This document shows positions 38,901 through 62,035 of a DNA stretch of 64,000 nucleotides, piece by piece. Source of the DNA: Amyelois transitella (taxonomy: Eukaryota; Arthropoda; Insecta; Lepidoptera; Pyralidae); contig NC_083535.1 in assembly GCF_032362555.1 (NCBI RefSeq), positions 13,454,001-13,518,000 of the forward strand. The letters are read 5' to 3'. Position numbers and translations under genes: made by a program. How positions within the stretch are numbered: position 1 is the stretch's first letter; each line of letters opens with the position of its first letter. Below the pieces are notes generated by a model. It was not told the DNA's origin and searched no databases. It saw nothing but the letters and a program-made list of their open reading frames with translations.

Positions 38901-41900
38901 GTTGTGTACATTAGTCTGAATGCTGACGAAAAACATCGTGAGGAAACCTGCAAATTCCAGCAACTGGATGTGCAACCATTATCGATCCAATACGGGTTAG
39001 GTTCGCTTGCAAAGGTTTGTGGAGATCAGACGGGAGTTCTCTTCGCATGTATAAATAATAATAGCTTACTTTTAGACGAACGTATCTTGATCAAATTAAG
39101 GACGTCCTGGTAAAGGGTCAGGTCAAAAGTACCCGAAACCGCCGAGCTTGCGTGAAGAGAGTTATGAATGTGGATGAAGCGAAGGAAATATGCAGAGATC
39201 GTGGCAAGTGGAAAGAGGTAGTCTCTGCCTACCCCTCCGGGATTTTATGTATGTATGTATGTAGTTTTGAACTTGAATTTTTCAGATTGCACGGATCATA
39301 CGAGGCCCTGAAGTATGGCAATCTGCTGGACGGGTTGGCGGATCTGACAGGCGGCATTACGGAGTCAATCTCGGAGAAGGTTGATGTGGGTACTCTGGCG
39401 AACCTCTTGAGACATAACAGCCTTGTCACGGCATACTATTCCCCTGGAGTAAGTACCAATGCGCCTAGAATTGAGTCTATAGTGTTTATTCATCATTCAT
39501 AATTTCCTCTTCTTCCTATTGGCTTTAGTCCCGGTTGCATCCTCACCACTCTGGAGAGCAGCCCAGGGTTTGCCTTTGACCATGGATCTTGAATTTGGTG
39601 GATCAGGTTTTTACACGAAACGGCTACATCTGACCTCCGCAACCTTTGCTGAGGAACCTAACCCGTATTGGAACATATGGTCACACATCCAGTTGCCTGA
39701 AAGTGCAGGCTACCTCACGATGTTTTCCCTCGCCGTAAGAGTATCGGTTAGTATTCAAACTAATGTACATAACATACGTACATACATATGGTCACGTCTA
39801 TATCCCTTGCGGGGTAGACAGAGCCAACAGTCTTGAAAAGACTGAATAGCCACGTTCAGCTATTTGGCTCAATGATAGAATAGAGATTCAAATAGTAACA
39901 GGTTCCATCCATGGGAAAAAGATGAAGTGGTCCTATTCTTTTTTGTATTAATGCCGGGAAACACACGGCATGTTCATAACTTCGAAAATAGTCATCGGTA
40001 CATCGCTGCGTTGGGATTCGAACCGGTGCCTTTATACATTTTAAATATTTATAATTACTACTTATTTTTCAGCCTGCGTGTGGTTACCGGCACCAATACA
40101 AAAAAGAATAGGACCACTCCATCTCTTTCCCATGGATGTCGTAAAAGGCGACTAAGGGCTTACAAACTTGGGATTCTTTTTGAGGCGATGGGCTAGCAAC
40201 CTGCTACTATTTGAATCTCAATTCTATCATTAAGCCAACCAAATAGCTGAACGTGGCCATTCAGTCTTTGCAAGACTGTTGGCTTTTTCTACCCCGCAAG
40301 GGGTAAAGACGTGACCATATATATGTATGTATGTATGTTTTCAGCCTGCCGAGGAACCACTAGTGGGACTACACAGCGAAATGAATTACAGAATATACAG
40401 GGTAGATAAGGTATGTTAATGAACATTTATTTATTGGAATATTATACATTTTATATTTTTATTTTTTTTCCTTTTAGTTTTTTTTTTCTTTTTTATATAT
40501 ATATAGATATATACAGGTTGCTAGCCCACAACCTTAACTTAACACATAGAAGGTTTTACTTTGACTTGAATGACAATAAATTCTAATCGTATTTAGCTAG
40601 AAGGTTCACTCCCGTGGAAATTCATACTTATTAGGTTTGCTAAAGACCCCTTCGGCTGTAGGTCTGCTCGTTATAAGACGAAATTAAAAGAAATAATTTA
40701 TAACCAAGCACATTCTCAATGAGTGGGTGTTACAACAATTGGTTTATATAAAAATCTTAATCATCAAAGTCTGTGCCGTGTGGTTCCTGGCACCACTACA
40801 AAAAAGAATAGGACCACTCCATCTCTTTCCCATGGATGTCGTAAAAGACGATTAAGGTACAGGCTTACAAACTTGGGATTCATTTTTTAGGCGATGGTCA
40901 AGAAACCTGTCACTATTTGAATCTCAATTCTATAATTAAGCCAAATAGCTGAACATGGCCTATCAGTAGTTTCATAACTGTTGGCTCTGTCTACCCCACA
41001 AGGGATATAGACGTGACCATATTTATCTATGTTTGAAAGTGAGTTTAACGTTTTCTATGCACTATTTTGCCAGTGGAAACTTTATAGATTTATACATACA
41101 TACATACATACATAAAATCACGCCTCTTTCCCGGAGGGGTAGGCAGAGACTACCTCTTTCCACTTGCCACGATCTCTGCATACTTCTTTCGCTTCGTCCA
41201 CATTCATAACTCTCTTCATACAAGCTCGGCGGTTTCGGGTACTTTTGACCTGACCCTTTACCAGGACGTCCTTAATTTGATCAAGATACGTTCGTCTAGG
41301 TCTTCCCACTCCGACCTTTCCCTCCACACTCTCCTTGTATATCTGCTTAGTCAACCTGCTTTCATTCATCCTCTCCACATGACCGAACCATCTTAACATA
41401 CCCTTTTCTATTCCTGTAACTACATCTTCTTTCACATCACAACATTCCCTTATCACGCTGTTCCTTATCCTGTCACTCAATTTCACACCCATCATACTCC
41501 TTAACGCTCTCATTTCCACTGCATTTATTCTGCTTTCATGCTTCTTTTGCCATACCCAACTTTCACTCCCATACATTAATGTCGGGACCAACACGCCCCT
41601 GTGCACAGCCAGTCGAGCCTTTTTGGATAGTTTCTGACTGCTCATAAAGGCATGCAAAGCTCCATTCACCATGTTCCCCGCGTTCACTCTCCTTTCAATA
41701 TCACTATCATACTTGCCATCTGATGTAAACTTTGATCCTAGATATACAAACTCTTTCACTTGCTCCACTTTTTCTCCTCCAATCAAAATATTACATGCTG
41801 TCATTTCTTTCTCCATTTCAAAAACCAGTGTTTTAGTTTTACTTACGTTCACTTTCATTCCTTTCTCTTTTAAAGCTTCATGCATACAGTTTACCATCTC

Positions 41901-44900
41901 CTGTAACTCCTCCGCTGATGACGCCAGTATAACCTGATCGTCGGCATAGAGCAGACATTTGACGAGTAACTCATTCATCCTTAATCCACTTTTAGACTCT
42001 TTCAAATCTGTCAAACAGCTATCCATAAATAGGTTGAACAGCCACGGTGACGCAACACATCCTTGCCTAACGCCTTTCTCAATCTTAAACCACTCAGTGT
42101 GCGGTCCGTTTATCCTGACACAAGCACTCGAATCCTCATATAAGGATTTCAGTGCTCGTATTAAGAGACTGCTCACCCCATGCATAGAAAGTGCTGACCA
42201 CAATTCATTCCTCTCAACTCTGTCATAGGCCTTTTCCAGATCTACGAATGTGCAATAGACTTTTTGACTCTTGGCCAAAAACTTTTCGGCTATGCACCGC
42301 AAGGAAAAGACCTGATCAGTACATCCCATTCCCTTTCGAAATCCCGCTTGAGCATCCCATATTTTGTCATCAGTTTCATTCCTGACTCTATTAATCAATA
42401 CCTTAGCATACAATTTGCCGACGACGCTAAGCAGGCTTATACCACGATAATTTTTGCAGTCCAGCTGTGACCCTTTTCCTTTGTAAAGTGGCACGATAAC
42501 AGCCTTACACCAATCTTTTGGTACTCGGCCGCTTCTCCAACACAAATTGAAAAGGCAGTACAACTGACTAGCTACTACGCCTTTTCCTGCTTTAAGCATC
42601 TCGACCGACACTCTATCACACCCAGCAGCCTTTCCCGCTTTCATACTCTTAAGTGCTTCCACAATTTCGAACATTTCAATTTCGCCTTCCATCTCATTCT
42701 CTTTTTCTTCGCTATAGCAGAAATCTTTCTTATTTCCTTCCTTTTTTTCAAATAAACTTTCAAAATAGTCCTTCCATATCTTTAGTACACATTCTTCTCC
42801 TTTCACAACGCTACCATCCTGGCATCTGATCCTAGTCAGCTCTCTGGTTATAGTATTTCCTCGGGCTGACCTTACGGATTTCCAGAATACTTTCAGATTT
42901 GACTGAAAGTCTTCTGATAGCCTTTTATCAAAATCCTCTTTATACTCTTCTTTCTTTCTAATCACAGCTTTCTTAACCAAATCTTTCATTTTCTTATATT
43001 CCTTACGTGCTTCATTCACATCTTCATCTATAACCTCTTGCATTCTTAAGTTAGCTTTTGCTGCTAACAAATCCAGCCATGCTTTCTTCTTTAATCGCAC
43101 AAGTTCTTGCACATCTTTACTCATCCACGCATTTTTGTGATTTTTTCCTTTCCTTCTTCTACTTACACCACACACTTCAACAGCTACTTTCACAATTCTT
43201 TCTTTAAATTCCTTCCATCCATCTTCAATATCGCTCATTTCCTCTAAATCTTCAAATTCATCCTTCAGTCTATTAATATACTTCTTACTTACATCCATAT
43301 CTTGCAAATTTTCTACTTTTACTCTTTCCAAAGCGCTGGTTTGCTCCCTTACCCTGTGCCGCCAGCGATTGAAGATACCCCTTATCCGGGATATCACCAG
43401 TAAATGGTCCGAGTCAATGCCAGCACCGCGATATGCACGGGTATCCAGCACTTTGTTCTTCAATCTTTCATCTACAATCACAAAGTCTATCATACTTTTT
43501 AAAATACCTTCCACTCTTGTGTAGGTGTGGATCTCTTTATGTTGAAACATTGAGTTCGACACAAAAAGATCCCACTCTAGACAAATTTCTAATACACTTC
43601 TTCCATTATCATTCACCTTTTCGTCACCAAACGCACCAAGCACCTTTTCATATCCATCACGCTTTACACCCACCCATCCATTAAAATCACCTAACATAAT
43701 AATCTTCTCATTTGGCTTGGTAACTTTCAATACTTCTCTTACACTATTCCAGAACTCCTCGTTTTCGCTTTTTGCTGATGTTGTACCCCTCGAACCCACA
43801 TCCCAAGGTGCATAAACACCTAGAACGAAGATCCGAGTGATTCCAACTTTCAGCCTAATCCATAGAAGACGAGGGCTGACACACTCATACTCATTCACGC
43901 ACTCAGCCATTCGTGCAGAAAGAATTAGACCGACCCCTTGACAGCCTCGGCTGGTACTGGAAATTCCAGACCAATACGCCGTGTAAGGGCCGTGCTGCGT
44001 CGCGTCGCATCCTTTCCGCTTCGTTTCATTCACGCACAACACATCCAAACGTCTTTCATCCATCATCTGGCATACTTCCTCAATCTTATCCTTCATTCCT
44101 CCTCTTACATTCATCGTCGCAAAGCGGCTTTCAGCAGACCGCATACCGCTCCCGCCGGGAACGAGACGTGATGGGGTGCGGACACCACCCCATCACGTCT
44201 CGTTATAGATTTATATATTTTAATATGTGCATTACAGAGTTGAAACATTTCTATGTTTAACAAATAATACAAAATCAGTCTGTTCTCTTTTGCAGATTCG
44301 CACGACTGAAGGCATTATGTATTTGGTACTCATAAAAAGACCATTGACCCCGGGGGGGCGGCAAACTGGGACAACGCTGGACGTTACCACGTAAGTTGAA
44401 AGCCAGGCTGCCGTGGTATAGGTAACTAAAATGCCGTATCTGACATCAGGATTTACACCTTTTTACATACATACATACATACATAAAATCACGCCTCTTT
44501 CCCGGAGGGGTAGGCAGAGACTACCTCTTTCCACTTGCCACGATCTCTGCATACTTCTTTCGCTTCGTCCACATTCATAACTCTCTTCATACAAGCTCGG
44601 CGGTTTCGGGACCTTAGACCTTTTTTACCAGTAAAATAAGAAAAAAAAATCCCTTTCGATCTGTATATACGACTTTTTGGTACCTAACTTTAAGTCATAA
44701 ATAGGCGTTCTCATTGATGAATGGCATCAGTTAAAATTTTTATCGTAGTTTTTGACGTTTTACTTAAAACAAGGATTTGGCAGATAACGGCATTTTAGTT
44801 ATACCAGGGCAGCAGGGGGAAGAACCCCTGGTTAGTCCCAGTTACATCCTCATGAAGACGGGGTGTCGGGGTCTGGGATCAGCTTCCCTATACTCAGTCC

Positions 44901-55930: not shown

Positions 55931-57683
55931 ACTGCAAATCAAATTTATATAGAATTTTTTACAAATATGATCTCTTAAATTTTCATTTCATTACATGATA
56001 CCTTATTGAAATTAAAAATTCTGTTACTTTTTGTCAGAAAGAGGGATGTATGACTGACTATGAACCTATATTTTCTATGGGTTCAGCTATTTTAAAGTGT
56101 GTGTTTTATTTGCCACGCTAAGCTGTATGGCTTAATGATGGTACACAGATTCAAATGGTGACAGGTTGCTAGCCCTAAAACAAGAATCTCAATGACTTTT
56201 TACGACATCCATGGGAAAGAGTAGAAGTGGACCTATTCTTTTTTTATTTGGGCAGGGAATCACAAGGCACTTAATTGTACCGAAAGTTAAATGAGTACCT
56301 AGTAAATAGTAAAGTTACGAAACACTAATATAACCTTAAAATTGGATGAAATTCCAACAATAATTATGAAATTTACCTTTTGGAGACTCTTTGGTAGATA
56401 TCAACTGAAATTATTCATAGGTAATTTGTAATTTATGTTATTACGCAAGAATTTGAACAAAAATTCGGTGAAATTAACATTGTTTTTTTTTTGTTTGACA
56501 GTTTACACTAAGACAGCCAGCAGTCATGACAGTCGGATATCTGTCACTGTCACACATCCCTAACTTTTTTATAGTGGTTCAAGCCGGGGCGAAGGAAATA
56601 ACATATATTTAAATTGTACAATCATCTATACATGCAGTCATGCACATAATAACGCCTTTATTCCTTACGGAGTATACAAAGCAAACAGTCTTGAAAAAGA
56701 TTAATTCTGTTTCCGCGGAAAATCACTACTGAAAGGGCTGTGCCTGTCGCCTGTAGCTGCTGTCTCTTTGATGTTTTCAAACAGATCTTGGACTTTTGGA
56801 CTATTGAATGTACAATGGTATGAAAGAATGGCACCAACTTCAATCAACTATGTGCAATTAGTTTTTGCACATGTATATTATAACAAAATACACAGTAACA
56901 CTCTCACATATAAGGGTCTCCCTGTTTAAACTTGATCCAGGATTTGAAAATATTTCAATAAGGGCGAGGGCCCTATTATGTAGTTACATTTAGATTTTCG
57001 ACATACATACGTTTTCTCACGTCCATATCCTTTGCGAGGTAGATAGTGGCAACAGTCTTGATAAGAGTCAGTCTTGAAAAGATTTCCGACCTAATTCTCT
57101 CCCAACTATTAGTTCTTTTGTTCTCGTCACCTTGGCAGGCGTAGGTCATTCCTTGATGGGACCAGGAGGGAAGACTGTTTCTCGAAGTCCAATATCATCT
57201 TACGCAACGTCTAGTAAGGATTCTACCAATTTTGGCCGGCGAAGATGGCTTGGTCAGACATTATCAAATAAACTGCAGATTCCGGTTCGATATGCTCGTG
57301 GTTATACGTCATGAAATCGGTTCTTTTTCATTTTGTCCATTTTTATACTCTGGGTGGTCAGGCTGGCGGTAATAATTTTACGAAACTTATTATATTATTT
57401 TAAATATATTGGACACTAATGTTCAATTATTTCACCCTCCCATCCTTGAGCATCGGAACTCATTTTAGGGTTCCGTAATCGTGACCGTGTATAAATATTA
57501 TGAGAATGTACACGGAACATTTTTCAATTTATTTGCATGTTGGCATACATATATACATAAAATCACGCCCTTTTCCCGGAGGGGTAGGCAGAGACTACCT
57601 CTTTCCACTTGCCATGATCTCTGCATACTTCCTTCGCTTCATCCACATTCATAACTCTCTTCATGCAAGCTCGGCGGTTTCAG
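55931..57683. other. Region between SDHAF3 and the DNA transposon
   Basis: Probably includes the SDHAF3 promoter (5' side of 55930). SINE-like fragments lie at about 56105-56275 (-) and 57000-57065, and a LINE tail at about 57548-57683 (-). A less AT-rich patch at 57130-57314 has an open frame (about 60 codons, ending PVRYARGYTS) after a CTTGGCAG acceptor-like site. I cannot assign it, and it may be a gene remnant. Confidence 0.45.
57676..57683. repeat. 8-bp target-site duplication, left copy
   Basis: GGTTTCAG, repeated at 61896-61903. Removing one copy and the element between restores a continuous LINE tail fragment (…CTCGGCGGTTTCAGGTACTT). Confidence 0.85.
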
Positions 57684-57958
57684 ATGTGCGTCAGAATGGC
57701 TGGTTGTCTGTGGCTTTGGTCTAAGAGAGTTGATCCAAAAATTGCTACATAATTGCTTATATTTGCTACATTTAATAAATAATTGCTACATACGATATAT
57801 ATCTAGAAATAAAATATTTTTTTTGACCAGCCATCCTGACGTTTGGTTGGCTGGTCACATCCTAGTTTAACGCCAAGCATGCACAGTTTCCTGAAATGTA
57901 TTGCGTCAATAATTGCTACATATTTACTTCATTTATATTATTTAGCTGTAATTTCAAA
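57684..57958 (+). repeat. Left terminal inverted repeat
   Basis: 275 bp matching 61621-61895 in reverse complement (one visible C/T difference at the inner edge). Similarity continues with more differences to about 58045. It contains several ATTGCTACAT motifs and an inverted copy of the terminal CGTCAGAATGGCTGGT. Confidence 0.92.
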
Positions 57959-58215
57959 TATGTGTTAAATAAACGATGTAGCAATTATTGAAATTATCCC
58001 AAGGAAAAGTGCCTGATAAAATAAAATAGGCAAATAGATGCAGTATTTTTTACTGAACAGCAGGCGGTTTGAATTATTAAATGGCATGTTAAGTTAGTGG
58101 ATAGTAAGAACATTATCGTAAATAAAAACAAAATGTGGGTTGTACTTATGTTTCAGTTTAATTATATTACAATTAAAAAATATTAAATTTGGTATTGATT
58201 GATCTGATATTTACA

Positions 58216-61200
58216 TTATTTTTTCGCATATATTATACAATGTGGTATTAGCTTCTTTTTACTCTTCGTAATTTTTTTCGATTCGTCATCATAACATATC
58301 CATTTTAAATTTCGTCTACAATGAGCTTTATAGTGACCAATTAGCGCTCCACATATTGGAGGCACGAACTCTATTATTGCTAGTAAATGGAACTCAGATC
58401 CTTCTAACAATAGAGATGTTGGTGGATCATCTATTGAAATAAATTGATCGGAATTGAATTCGAATGCTATAAGATCTCGTAAAGATACACTAAATGATTT
58501 GACACCTTTACATTGACTACGCCGGCATTCTGTAAGTTCTTGAGCATTAATTAAAGTATTTGCGGATACTTGTAAATCATTAATGGATGACGCTATATCA
58601 ACGTGTAGAACAGGTATCTTACGCTGAACTTTATTTATTACACAATCTGATTCTGTACAATGTTCACGTTCATCTGCACTGTATATACAGTCTATCAAAA
58701 TGCGCTCAAATATATTATTTACATTGCACTCACATCTGACTTCCACAGAGGATTCTTTTTCAACTTTTGAAAAATAGATTAGAGCCATTTCAGATCTTAT
58801 TTTGTACACTTCATCTGTATTCCTTCCACTCATGAGTCTGACTAGTTTACAGAATAAATTTTCACTTTTATGTATTATTTGACTTATCCGATAGCCATCG
58901 ATATATGCTATAGCTAACGCCTGACATACCGAGTCAATCGCGCATGTATTCCTCAATATAATATTTTTGTTATCAATTTTTAGCTTGCTTCCGTTAGACA
59001 AAAAAATAACCGGTTTCAAAGTTTTTCTTCTTTTAGTAACATTTCCTTTCCCTTTCCAGTTTTCGATGAAGGTAGGATCCTCGGAAAAAATAGAATCTTC
59101 TGTAAACTCTTCCTTCGGCTCCTTGCTAGACTTCTGCGTAGACGTTTTTGAATCTCTTTTTATTTCCTTTTCCTTAGTATGAAAATCAGCTCCAGTATTT
59201 TTTTTTAGAGTAATGTTCGGCAGTATCGATTTTCTCGGTGCAACCTTGATCTCTCCTTTTAAAAATTCTAAATGTTTCATAATGAATTCATCTGTTCTTA
59301 GTCTGTGTGATTTTGTGCTTAGGTGTAATAGCAGTCTTTTTATTGTTTTAAAGTATGATTCGACATTTGAAGAAGTAGGTGCCTCGATATCGGAATCATA
59401 AATATTCTTCATTACGTTTGACCACAAAGGAAAAAGATTCAGTAAACGTGATAGAGTTCCTATAAAAGCAGGATAGTGGTACAAATTGTCGTGATTGCCT
59501 ATATCTTCAGTATCCAGTGTAATTAATATTTTTTCTGTTTCAACTTTGTTGGTCAACCATTTAAAAAATCTGTTCTCTTCACTTAATTTGGTATCAGTTT
59601 TATTTTCGAATACTGACTTTTCAGCTTTAGGCACATCATTTATTCTGTCACTCTCTTGAATCTCTATCTCTGTATCTAGAGTCTGAAACTGATTCAATGT
59701 CTTTAATCGATTCTTAGCCAACTCACATCTAGAAGGAGAATTGGATTTATTACTGCCGTCGTGTTCATTCAAACAAACTGTAATGATATCAGTCAATATT
59801 TCTTTGGATTTTTCAAAATTTACGCACTCCTTCAAAGCTAACAGGCATTTAATATAAAATAATTTGACCCTATTGTCGACGTGCTTAAAACACGTTAAAT
59901 TAAAAATTATTTTCACAAAATGACTAGTGTCTATTCTAATGTAGCAATCGTCGCTTTTTTCGTCTTCTTCTAATTTTCTGTAGGATTCAATAGCATAATC
60001 TTTAGTAGAGTTATGTTTCGTAAAGGCCTTTACGCAAGCACCAATCAGCGCAGATGACTCATCGACAATGATTTCGTCTGGTTTTGGATTGCTCACGTGC
60101 CATGATTCCAGCCATTTGTATATTGTGTCCATAGAATGGCTTTCTGATACCATTTGGGTTACTGGGATACTACTGTGACCTTCATATGTTTTCATTACAC
60201 ATACATAAAACAATATGTGTTTGGTAATTGTAACATTATCTATAGGCCCAAATGTTTTGAAAATGCTTCCGGTGGCATCTATACTAACAATTAACTTGCC
60301 CGTTTTTTTAAATTCTTTGTAATATTGATCTTGGCACGGATCCCAATAATAAATATAAAATGGATACACAGAGATATGTTTGATAGCTTCTTTGTAAGGC
60401 GATATTTGGGTCATTAGCCATAAAGAAAGTATTTGGTTTTGATGAAAAAGTGAACTTTTTTTATGTTCGTGTTTTATTTGACGTAAGCACCCCGTTGTTG
60501 GTAAATGAGTAGGTTCAGGCTCATCTGAATTAACATCTAAATTATAATTATTTGCCATTGAGTTACGATATGAAATAGCGGAAACATATTTAAGTTCTTC
60601 GGCTATTTCAGCTCTTTTAACAGGAGAAAGTTTTATTTTTCTTATTGGAGTATGAACAAATGTTTCGTCGTAATTTGTTATAATGCATTTGCATTGAGCA
60701 ATTTTATCCGAAGGCCAGCTAATAATAACTTTCACATCAGCTGCACATTGTTTACAAGATCCAGTGCACGTTATATTGGTGTTCATAGAAATTGAATACT
60801 GTTTAAATGTCCAACTGTGTGCGGTTGGATGAACATCCCAAATTTTTTCTCGCAATTGATGAGCCCACTGATGTTTAGGCAAAAGATTTTTCAATCTAAA
60901 GACAGACTCAGATCCTTTATTTAATTTTATGCGTTTAGTTATTGGTTGCAAACGCTCCCACTGATACGTATCAATTAAAAAATTATACGTTAATGTGTTT
61001 CCAAGCGATTTGTTGCTGCCGTCTTGGCATTTATTTTCTATTCTATTATCACATTTATCATTTAAAGTAATTGTGCTTGGCTCTTCACAGCAAATATCAT
61101 CATTTGGTCTAAAAAAGTAATCAAAATTTTTCTTAACTGAAAGGTACAGTGCCTGTGTCGTAATCTTATTGGCTAATGCATTACTAATTTCACCAAACAG

Positions 61201-61311
61201 TGGATCTGTAGATGCTGGTAAATCTGACTTACTTGGAAAATACTTTTTGTATTGCAAGAAAACCCTTTTTTGTTCTTCGAGTGGCACGACAAACTTTCTT
61301 CCTCTCTTCAT
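58216..61311 (-). CDS. Transposase fused to a USP-like cysteine peptidase domain
   Basis: 1031 aa from the ATG at 61311 (an in-frame ATG at 61350 adds 13 hydrophobic residues and is less likely). N-terminal part: basic start MKRGRK, then a cysteine/histidine cluster (C182, C186, C189, C207, C209, H220) that could be a zinc-binding DNA-recognition domain. Central part: an RNase-H-like transposase core with D345 (SIDATGS), D417 (EIIVDESSALIGA), a DTSHFVK motif, and E651 (SSNVESYFKTIKR) as the likely third acidic residue. After a lysine/serine-rich linker (about 690-770), the C-terminal part has LRNTCAIDSVCQAL (C790) and GHYKAHCRRNLKWICYDD (H993, D1008 or D1009). These correspond to the Cys and His boxes of ubiquitin-specific proteases, with further paired cysteines in between. 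All expected catalytic residues appear present. Function of the peptidase in transposition is unknown. Confidence 0.82.
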   Translation of the reverse strand: MKRGRKFVVPLEEQKRVFLQYKKYFPSKSDLPASTDPLFGEISNALANKITTQALYLSVKKNFDYFFRPNDDICCEEPSTITLNDKCDNRIENKCQDGSNKSLGNTLTYNFLIDTYQWERLQPITKRIKLNKGSESVFRLKNLLPKHQWAHQLREKIWDVHPTAHSWTFKQYSISMNTNITCTGSCKQCAADVKVIISWPSDKIAQCKCIITNYDETFVHTPIRKIKLSPVKRAEIAEELKYVSAISYRNSMANNYNLDVNSDEPEPTHLPTTGCLRQIKHEHKKSSLFHQNQILSLWLMTQISPYKEAIKHISVYPFYIYYWDPCQDQYYKEFKKTGKLIVSIDATGSIFKTFGPIDNVTITKHILFYVCVMKTYEGHSSIPVTQMVSESHSMDTIYKWLESWHVSNPKPDEIIVDESSALIGACVKAFTKHNSTKDYAIESYRKLEEDEKSDDCYIRIDTSHFVKIIFNLTCFKHVDNRVKLFYIKCLLALKECVNFEKSKEILTDIITVCLNEHDGSNKSNSPSRCELAKNRLKTLNQFQTLDTEIEIQESDRINDVPKAEKSVFENKTDTKLSEENRFFKWLTNKVETEKILITLDTEDIGNHDNLYHYPAFIGTLSRLLNLFPLWSNVMKNIYDSDIEAPTSSNVESYFKTIKRLLLHLSTKSHRLRTDEFIMKHLEFLKGEIKVAPRKSILPNITLKKNTGADFHTKEKEIKRDSKTSTQKSSKEPKEEFTEDSIFSEDPTFIENWKGKGNVTKRRKTLKPVIFLSNGSKLKIDNKNIILRNTCAIDSVCQALAIAYIDGYRISQIIHKSENLFCKLVRLMSGRNTDEVYKIRSEMALIYFSKVEKESSVEVRCECNVNNIFERILIDCIYSADEREHCTESDCVINKVQRKIPVLHVDIASSINDLQVSANTLINAQELTECRRSQCKGVKSFSVSLRDLIAFEFNSDQFISIDDPPTSLLLEGSEFHLLAIIEFVPPICGALIGHYKAHCRRNLKWICYDDESKKITKSKKKLIPHCIIYAKK

Positions 61312-61620
61312 CGTCACAAACACCAAAAAACGAATTAAATATAGGTTCAAGAAGCAGTAAGTATCTACTTATTCCTTATTATTTATAGTGTAGAATAACA
61401 TTAAACAAGTCAACTCTGTAATTCCAATATTGATACTTTGATTTATTGAGGGTAGGTGCATATTTTTTATTGCATAAATCGTATTACTTACACGGTTACC
61501 AGAGCCTAAAAAATTAAGCCAACGAAATCTACATAACTGAGTATTTGCCTTTATTATTTTATCAGGCACTTTTTCCTTGTGATAATTGAAATGATTGCTA
61601 CATCCTTCATTTAACACATG

Positions 61621-61895
61621 TTTGAAGTTACAGCTAAATAATATAAATGAAGTAAATATGTAGCAATTATTGACGCAATACATTTCAGGAAACTGTGCAT
61701 GCTTGGCGTTAAACTAGGATGTGACCAGCCAACCAAACGTCAGGATGGCTGGTCAAAAAAAATATTTTATTTCTAGATATATATCGTATGTAGCAATTAT
61801 TTATTAAATGTAGCAAATATAAGCAATTATGTAGCAATTTTTGGATCAACTCTCTTAGACCAAAGCCACAGACAACCAGCCATTCTGACGCACAT
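61621..61895 (-). repeat. Right terminal inverted repeat
   Basis: Reverse complement of the left TIR. The inner extension (about 61535-61620) is similar to the left one but with visible substitutions and indels. The ORF start (61311) lies 224 bp inside the inner edge, so the promoter is probably in or next to this TIR. Confidence 0.92.
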
Positions 61896-62035
61896 GGTTT
61901 CAGGTACTTTTGACCTGACCCTTACCAGGACGTCCTTAATTTGATCAAGATACGTTCGTCTAGATCTTCCCACTCCGACCTTTCCCTCCACACTCTCCTT
62001 GTATATCTGCTTAGTCAACCTGCTTTCATTGCATG
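61896..62035 (-). mobile_element. Right part of the LINE tail split by the DNA transposon
   Basis: Begins with the duplicated GGTTTCAG, then continues the LINE fragment that stops at 57683 (TACTTTTGACCTGACCCTTA ... CTGCTTAGTCAACCTGCTTT). The DNA transposon therefore inserted into a pre-existing LINE remnant. Confidence 0.85.

Follow-up and report, generated by a model that had tools for sequence, protein, structure and literature searches.

A recently mobile transposon of Amyelois transitella encodes a probably Mutator-like transposase fused to a domain of predicted ubiquitin-specific protease fold

The window, a 64,000-nucleotide stretch of DNA (Amyelois transitella, Lepidoptera; contig NC_083535.1, positions 13,454,001 to 13,518,000), contains a DNA transposon whose transposase carries at its C-terminus a domain predicted to have the fold of the ubiquitin-specific proteases (USPs). 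An earlier note on this DNA had described a single uninterrupted open reading frame (ORF) at 58216-61311 that joins a transposase to a USP-like domain; the frame was confirmed, on the minus strand, with an ATG at 61311, a TAA stop at 58216 and a product of 1031 amino acids (aa), and the plus-strand reading of the same interval contains 67 stops. The note had named neither the strand nor the limits of the element, its superfamily or its copy number. The features are given below with window coordinates, strand and supporting evidence (TIR, terminal inverted repeat; TSD, target-site duplication; MULE, Mutator-like element).

57684..61895, minus: entire DNA transposon of family 1 (4212 bp), inserted into a non-LTR retroelement at its 3' end (TIRs, TSD, empty site, other copies)
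57684..58036, plus: left TIR, 353 bp, beginning ATGTGCGTCAGAATGGCTGG (identity to the right repeat)
61542..61895, minus: right TIR, 354 bp (identity to the left repeat)
57676..57683, no strand: TSD GGTTTCAG, left copy (perfect 8 bp)
61896..61903, no strand: TSD GGTTTCAG, right copy (perfect 8 bp)
58216..61311, minus: single ORF, 1031 aa, with a putative N-terminal DNA-binding part, a DDE transposase and a USP-like domain (ORF reading, recurrence in the genome)
60646..60819, minus: Cys/His zinc domain, residues ~165-222 (near-invariant C186/C189, model strands, MULE alignment)
59239..60396, minus: RNase-H-like DDE catalytic region, residues ~306-691, with D345, D417, DxxH at 461-464 and E651 (conservation and model)
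58219..59016, minus: predicted USP-fold (C19-type) cysteine protease domain, residues 766-1031 (conservation and predicted fold)
58942..58944, minus: C790, predicted nucleophile, in NTCAID (conservation)
58333..58335, minus: H993, predicted catalytic His, in GHYK (conservation)
58288..58290, minus: D1008, predicted third catalytic residue, in WICYDD (conservation)
58510..58659, minus: two CxxxxC pairs (C885/C890 and C929/C934), predicted zinc site of the USP fingers type (conservation)

The two TIRs share 343 identical positions over 353/354 bp. When the flanks of the element were joined by script with a single copy of the duplication and aligned within the window, they matched across the insertion site a retroelement tail at 41366-41099 (96%) as well as 38397-38138 (90%), 39073-39261 (92%) and 8446-8260 (82%), with some further shorter overlaps with the same tail; these uninterrupted tail copies therefore represent the empty site. 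Several copies, their different sites, the TSDs and an empty site, the marks of cut-and-paste transposition, were all found, and the element is a recently mobile, probably autonomous transposon with the 1031-aa frame as its only long ORF. The 9-mer TTGCTACAT is found five times in each TIR, with a single further occurrence midway in the element, and is absent from the rest of the window; its repeats are likely binding sites of the transposase. The retroelement whose 3' tail hosts the transposon lies at 41118-44192 (minus strand) and has a 1024-aa open frame in which endonuclease and reverse transcriptase parts are recognizable by eye; this tail recurs at ten or more other places in the window.

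Residue conservation was assessed in an alignment of 11 proteins with 24-42% identity to the window protein. D345 (in IDATGS), D417 (in VDESSALIGA) and E651 (in SSNVESYF), named in the earlier note as the DDE residues, are identical in 11/11 proteins, as are D461 and H464; the DDE residues fall within a model of RNase-H-like fold whose matches include transposases and integrases. The Cys box (LRNTCAIDSVCQAL, with C790) and the His box (GHYKAHC...WICYDD, with H993 and D1008/1009) are present as the note had stated and are kept among relatives: C790 in all ten aligned proteins that extend that far, H993 and D1008 in all nine that hold this part of the domain. Outside the latter count are P0014, which is cut short, and P0017, whose available sequence lacks the domain (a Leu aligns at the His). 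All four cysteines of the predicted zinc site (C885, C890, C929, C934) were found in each of the ten aligned members that reach it. Upstream, C186 and C189 are nearly invariant, the predicted model shows four strands at residues 167-212, and the corresponding part of genomic MULE transposases can be aligned with this region; we read residues ~165-222 as a FLYWCH/WRKY-GCM1-like zinc domain that would bind DNA. The linker between the two enzymatic parts (residues ~740-752 of the window protein, P0001, and its relatives) has a conserved SIFSxxPxxxENW, with S740, F742, P746 and E750-W752 nearly invariant.

Structure prediction gives the C-terminal region a USP fold with high confidence, which bears out the USP-like domain proposed in the note. 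The top rows of the Foldseek comparison of the C-terminal model are ubiquitin USPs, with the SUMO protease USPL1 in 43rd place (USP30, USP46, USPL1 and CYLD serve here as the named USP-fold proteins for comparison), while a PDB search with single sequences and an NCBIfam search with three members gave nothing useful. A chance match of the motifs is ruled out by the predicted fold and the conservation, and also because the 1031-aa frame recurs stop-free in four genomic copies (~100% protein identity) and at full length in other families (33-43%).

The search of the genome (327 Mb, 33 contigs) with the protein returned 31 matches, 11 of them full length and without stops. Family 1 comprises four full copies (L001-L004) with 99.93-99.98% DNA identity over ~4212 bp, situated at different sites, each with its own TSD (TCGAAGTA, GGTTTCAG, TATCTTTTT and TCCGTTCT). 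L012, the fifth insertion, has suffered an internal deletion; what is left of it is 100% identical and has an 8-bp TSD. Searching the genome with the 300 terminal bp as DNA gave at least ten ends of 99-100% identity, besides one partial match of 88%; family 1 therefore appears young and of low copy number. The partial match (G000:C4:9244133-9244205) covers 73 bp corresponding to positions 43-115 of the inverted repeat and may be an old relic or a miniature element. Family 2 (L005/L014; 43% protein identity to the query) has one intact copy with an 8-bp TSD, the inverted repeats of which agree at all 304 aligned bp; a second copy (L013), with 99.1-99.8% protein identity, is interrupted. Family 3 (L006-L011; 33%) has six intact copies of ~5018 bp with repeats of 664-665 bp; four have clear 9-bp TSDs, and L006 and L011 form a tandem with a common target sequence. 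This pair (G000:C32:5640532-5651694) lies head to tail with identical protein scores and is parted only by a copy of the target sequence (cacggag), so that one insertion seems to have used the target duplication of the other. A fourth family is known from the deletion derivative L050, with repeats starting ATGTGCGTGTGC and a 9-bp TSD. The full copies have TIRs of 302-665 bp. Altogether, TSDs are clear and perfect, of 8 or 9 bp, in 11 of the 13 scored insertions (L001-L004, L012, L014 for L005, L007-L010 and L050), and measure 7-9 bp in the tandem pair depending on the boundary chosen.

The other genomic matches, L051-L054 among those inspected, are partial or contain stops; L052, the most divergent examined (25-33%), has NSTCAFDA and an out-of-frame HHYVAY...WYKYD downstream of its transposase part. 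Both deletion derivatives examined, L012 and L050, have kept the USP-coding end of the ORF and lost the transposase (n=2), and the remaining 317-aa frame of L050 is open. P0013, a database protein of JGI source, is identical to this C-terminal ORF at 314/317 residues, which may reflect either the same or closely related host DNA in the sample or a recent horizontal transfer.

Protein searches yielded 36 database relatives (P0002-P0037), for none of which the listings show a precomputed Pfam domain; adding L005, L006 and the window protein brings the set to 39 proteins. The five relatives with a named organism are all from Lepidoptera and belong to four superfamilies (Pieris macdunnoughi, Diatraea saccharalis with two, Tuta absoluta and Arctia plantaginis); among them only P0021, from D. 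saccharalis, shows both boxes, the other four ending earlier. In the whole set the Cys box is present in 22 proteins and both boxes in 20, P0014 and P0036 being cut between the two. The remaining 17/39 stop, without exception, short of the Cys box position, hence no database relative that reaches it lacks the domain, and a USP-less sister branch (P0017, P0020), first suspected, is unsupported. Both boxes, with Asp in the third position of the triad, are present in all 17 proteins of at least 900 aa; together with the 11 stop-free full-length genomic matches, these proteins establish, as the note had left to be checked, that the halves are fused elsewhere. When trees of the transposase part and of the USP part of the same 17 proteins were compared, 9 of 14 splits were common to both, against 0.23 on average and at most 3 in 1000 label shuffles; both halves have therefore long travelled together. 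Three of the five unshared splits have a support of 0.34-0.80 in the transposase tree, the other two 0.88 and 0.99. No match was obtained in viral contigs with the window protein as query, a search sensitive to close relatives only.

The transposase is probably Mutator-like, of a divergent clade. By Z, the best fold match of its model is ISCth4 (13.1), which we take to be a member of the IS256 family, prokaryotic kin of MULEs; the P element scores 11.1 and Hermes 10.9, and the retroviral integrase cores rank below these three. MULEs carry a C/DxxH motif after the second D, present here as D461 and H464, and the 8-9-bp TSDs with inverted repeats fall within the 8-11 bp given for MULE TSDs. Profile comparison used 12 genomic MULE proteins, remaining from 14 loci tried after L048 (no 250-aa ORF) and L047 (unrelated ORF) were dropped. 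The HHalign score was 39.3 (stated probability only 22%), compared to a maximum of 22.3 in 60 column shuffles and 21.6 for the reversed profile, and the match is collinear through the zinc domain, D1, D2 and the xxH motif, with the third acidic residue unaligned.

We propose, as the reading that we hold to be fairly likely, an autonomous Mutator-like transposon whose transposase-USP isopeptidase is active in cis on the transposase and its transpososome partners. The transposase would bind the ~354-bp inverted repeats through its N-terminal helical/zinc region, probably at TTGCTACAT, and the RNase-H-like core with D345, D417 and E651 would cut and join the DNA, leaving 8-9-bp target duplications. 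The USP-fold isopeptidase (C790-H993-D1008, with zinc fingers), most likely catalytically active, would work in cis since it is tethered to the transposase, stripping ubiquitin or a ubiquitin-like modifier off the transposase and off host proteins of the transpososome, such as chromatin and repair factors at donor and target sites. The benefit would be a stable transposase and open access to the transposon ends; the earlier suggestion that the element may stabilise its own transposase or evade silencing is plausible. The fusion is kept across relatives, hence it is probably used for the removal of ubiquitin-like tags.

Several results weigh against this proposal. The transposase model has four Foldseek matches at E <=0.001, one of them an unrelated KICSTOR chain, and the Pfam MULE family (PF10551) is absent from the 14 families that 17 members hit at E 10 and from the matches of 10 queries at E 0.1; the superfamily assignment therefore rests on the fold, the TSDs and TIRs and a weak profile match. 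As for the C-terminus, single USPs are matched in Foldseek with moderate TM-scores, 0.42-0.57 among the matches listed when normalised to the query. The Pfam family UCH matches a 250-aa C-terminal slice of the window copy at 16.6 bits, below the cut-off, and is matched by 2/17 whole proteins at E 10, by 5/9 C-terminal slices at E 1 and by 1/10 queries at E 0.1 (the C-terminus of the L006 family, 27.5 bits with a cut-off of 23.9). USPs usually carry an oxyanion Asn five residues before the Cys, which only 1/17 members (P0030) has, so that the chemistry may be altered in the other 16.

On balance somewhat unlikely is a placement of the transposase in a different superfamily (P-element, hAT or KDZ-like) or in one of its own. 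TSDs of 8 bp also fit hAT, P and Zisupton elements, the P element and Hermes are near in Z and the P element comes first in Foldseek, the profile match leaves the third acidic residue unaligned, and the first 17 members lack a Pfam MULE match even at E 10. Moreover, D2 and E are 233 residues apart, compared to 120-172 (residues plus gaps) in 11 of 12 arthropod MULE clades and 214 in the twelfth, as given in the available part of PMC13359780. The Mutator-like assignment is nevertheless favoured by ISCth4 as the best fold, by 9-bp TSDs in 6/13 scored insertions and by a weak but collinear profile match that scores above shuffled and reversed controls.

The domain could also be a SUMO isopeptidase like USPL1 that undoes SUMO-dependent (piRNA/chromatin) silencing of the element, which we consider quite unlikely. 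By fold, USPL1 appeared tied with ubiquitin USPs in a second structural comparison, in contrast to its 43rd place behind ubiquitin USPs in Foldseek; by sequence, ubiquitin seems favoured over SUMO, since the single member with matches to both families scores far better with UCH (3e-06) than with C98 (0.018).

Distinctly doubtful is the view that the domain is a pseudo-protease, a non-catalytic ubiquitin/SUMO-binding or structural module docking the transposase on modified chromatin. It survives because of the missing oxyanion Asn; in addition, the canonical USP residue at Cys+3 is Asn and here it is Asp, and the PAN2 pseudo-hydrolase is among the fold matches listed. However, CYLD and USPL1 are active USP-fold enzymes with C-x-x-D boxes, and one would expect the triad of an inactive enzyme to drift, whereas Cys, His and Asp stand together in 9/9 aligned domains, the other eight of which are only 25-38% identical to the window copy, and in 17/17 of the larger set. 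Although MULEs do capture host fragments (as abstracts also mention), the idea that the USP part was recently taken up from a host USP gene in Pack-MULE fashion, or is a chimera produced by the gene model or the assembly, is refuted for practical purposes. The fusion recurs in P0021 of D. saccharalis and in families that are 29-43% identical, the two halves share tree splits, and the single uninterrupted frame involves no gene model. In addition, the 31 genomic protein matches and the 56 Pfam UCH places have no place in common, according to which no host USP is a near relative; the UCH search also missed the element's own domains and so is of limited sensitivity.

Ginger transposons, whose TSDs are 4 bp, are a known animal case to set beside the fusion. 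According to the available part of PMC2836005, the Ginger1 transposases of Hydra, aphid and Aplysia have a C-terminal OTU or Ulp1 domain; like the protein described here, they are animal cut-and-paste transposases that end in a cysteine protease of the ubiquitin/SUMO system, but their core is a Gypsy-type integrase with GPY/F and their protease is OTU or Ulp1 instead of a USP fold. The list of fold matches for our C-terminus was filled by USP-type rows, in which OTU or Ulp1 could not appear if ranked lower. Mutator elements with Ulp1 are cited in the same part of that paper from hydra, lancelet, Arabidopsis, maize, rice and melon; these join a transposon of Mutator type, as ours probably is, to a protease for ubiquitin-like modifiers, theirs Ulp1 (C48) and ours USP (C19), while the present transposase forms a divergent clade without a Pfam MULE match. 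A USP-type domain on a transposase is mentioned there for Trichomonas vaginalis XP_001314237.1 (transposase_11 plus Peptidase C19), which differs in being a protist protein with a transposase_11 core, cited without element structure. The domain shares the predicted fold, the Cys-His-Asp order and the predicted zinc fingers with USPs (MEROPS C19; USP30, USP46, USPL1, CYLD) and differs from them by its 9-16% identity in structural rows, its minimal size (~266 residues), the lack of the canonical oxyanion Asn and its fusion to a transposase.

For Phantom and the arthropod MULE clades, the available texts of PMC6446971 and PMC13359780 give TSDs of 8-10 bp or unstated, TIRs of 18-613 bp or none, FLYWCH in some and an arthropod DDE core, and the latter, a 2026 survey, gives 313-518 aa for the lepidopteran complete-MULE transposases; the words ubiquitin, protease and peptidase do not occur in those main texts as available, nor any of five protease terms in the KDZ/TET paper PMC12730594. 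PMC8277862 has no bearing on the fusion. Besides PMC2836005, titles and abstract openings of the top-ranked papers mention no USP domain in an animal transposase. The note's view that such a fusion is no standard description needs correction in one point, given the Ginger1 and Trichomonas fusions: transposases joined to ubiquitin/SUMO proteases are already known as a kind, and the USP-fold variant in a recently active animal element appears new, with a reserve for unseen print.

Transposases joined to a ubiquitin/SUMO protease occur in several groups of transposons, with Ulp1 in Mutator elements and OTU/Ulp1 in Ginger1, and another fold, USP, is now found fixed in a recently active animal element. 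Tentatively, and as an idea that we would call unlikely in its full extent, an animal Mutator-like clade, still mobile, uses a fixed USP-type isopeptidase in cis as a counter-defence, erasing ubiquitin/SUMO marks on the transposase and on silencing chromatin; if true, the transposon would bring along its own deubiquitinase, which would act in cis and let transposition escape host control. Intact, near-identical copies with defined ends make the role of the protease accessible to simple experiments. Since the relatives are without Pfam annotation, copies may be mistaken for unknown host genes. The same genome has PF10551 transposase frames at 95 places, with several groups of numerous stop-free copies of identical score, which suggests a large recent MULE expansion.
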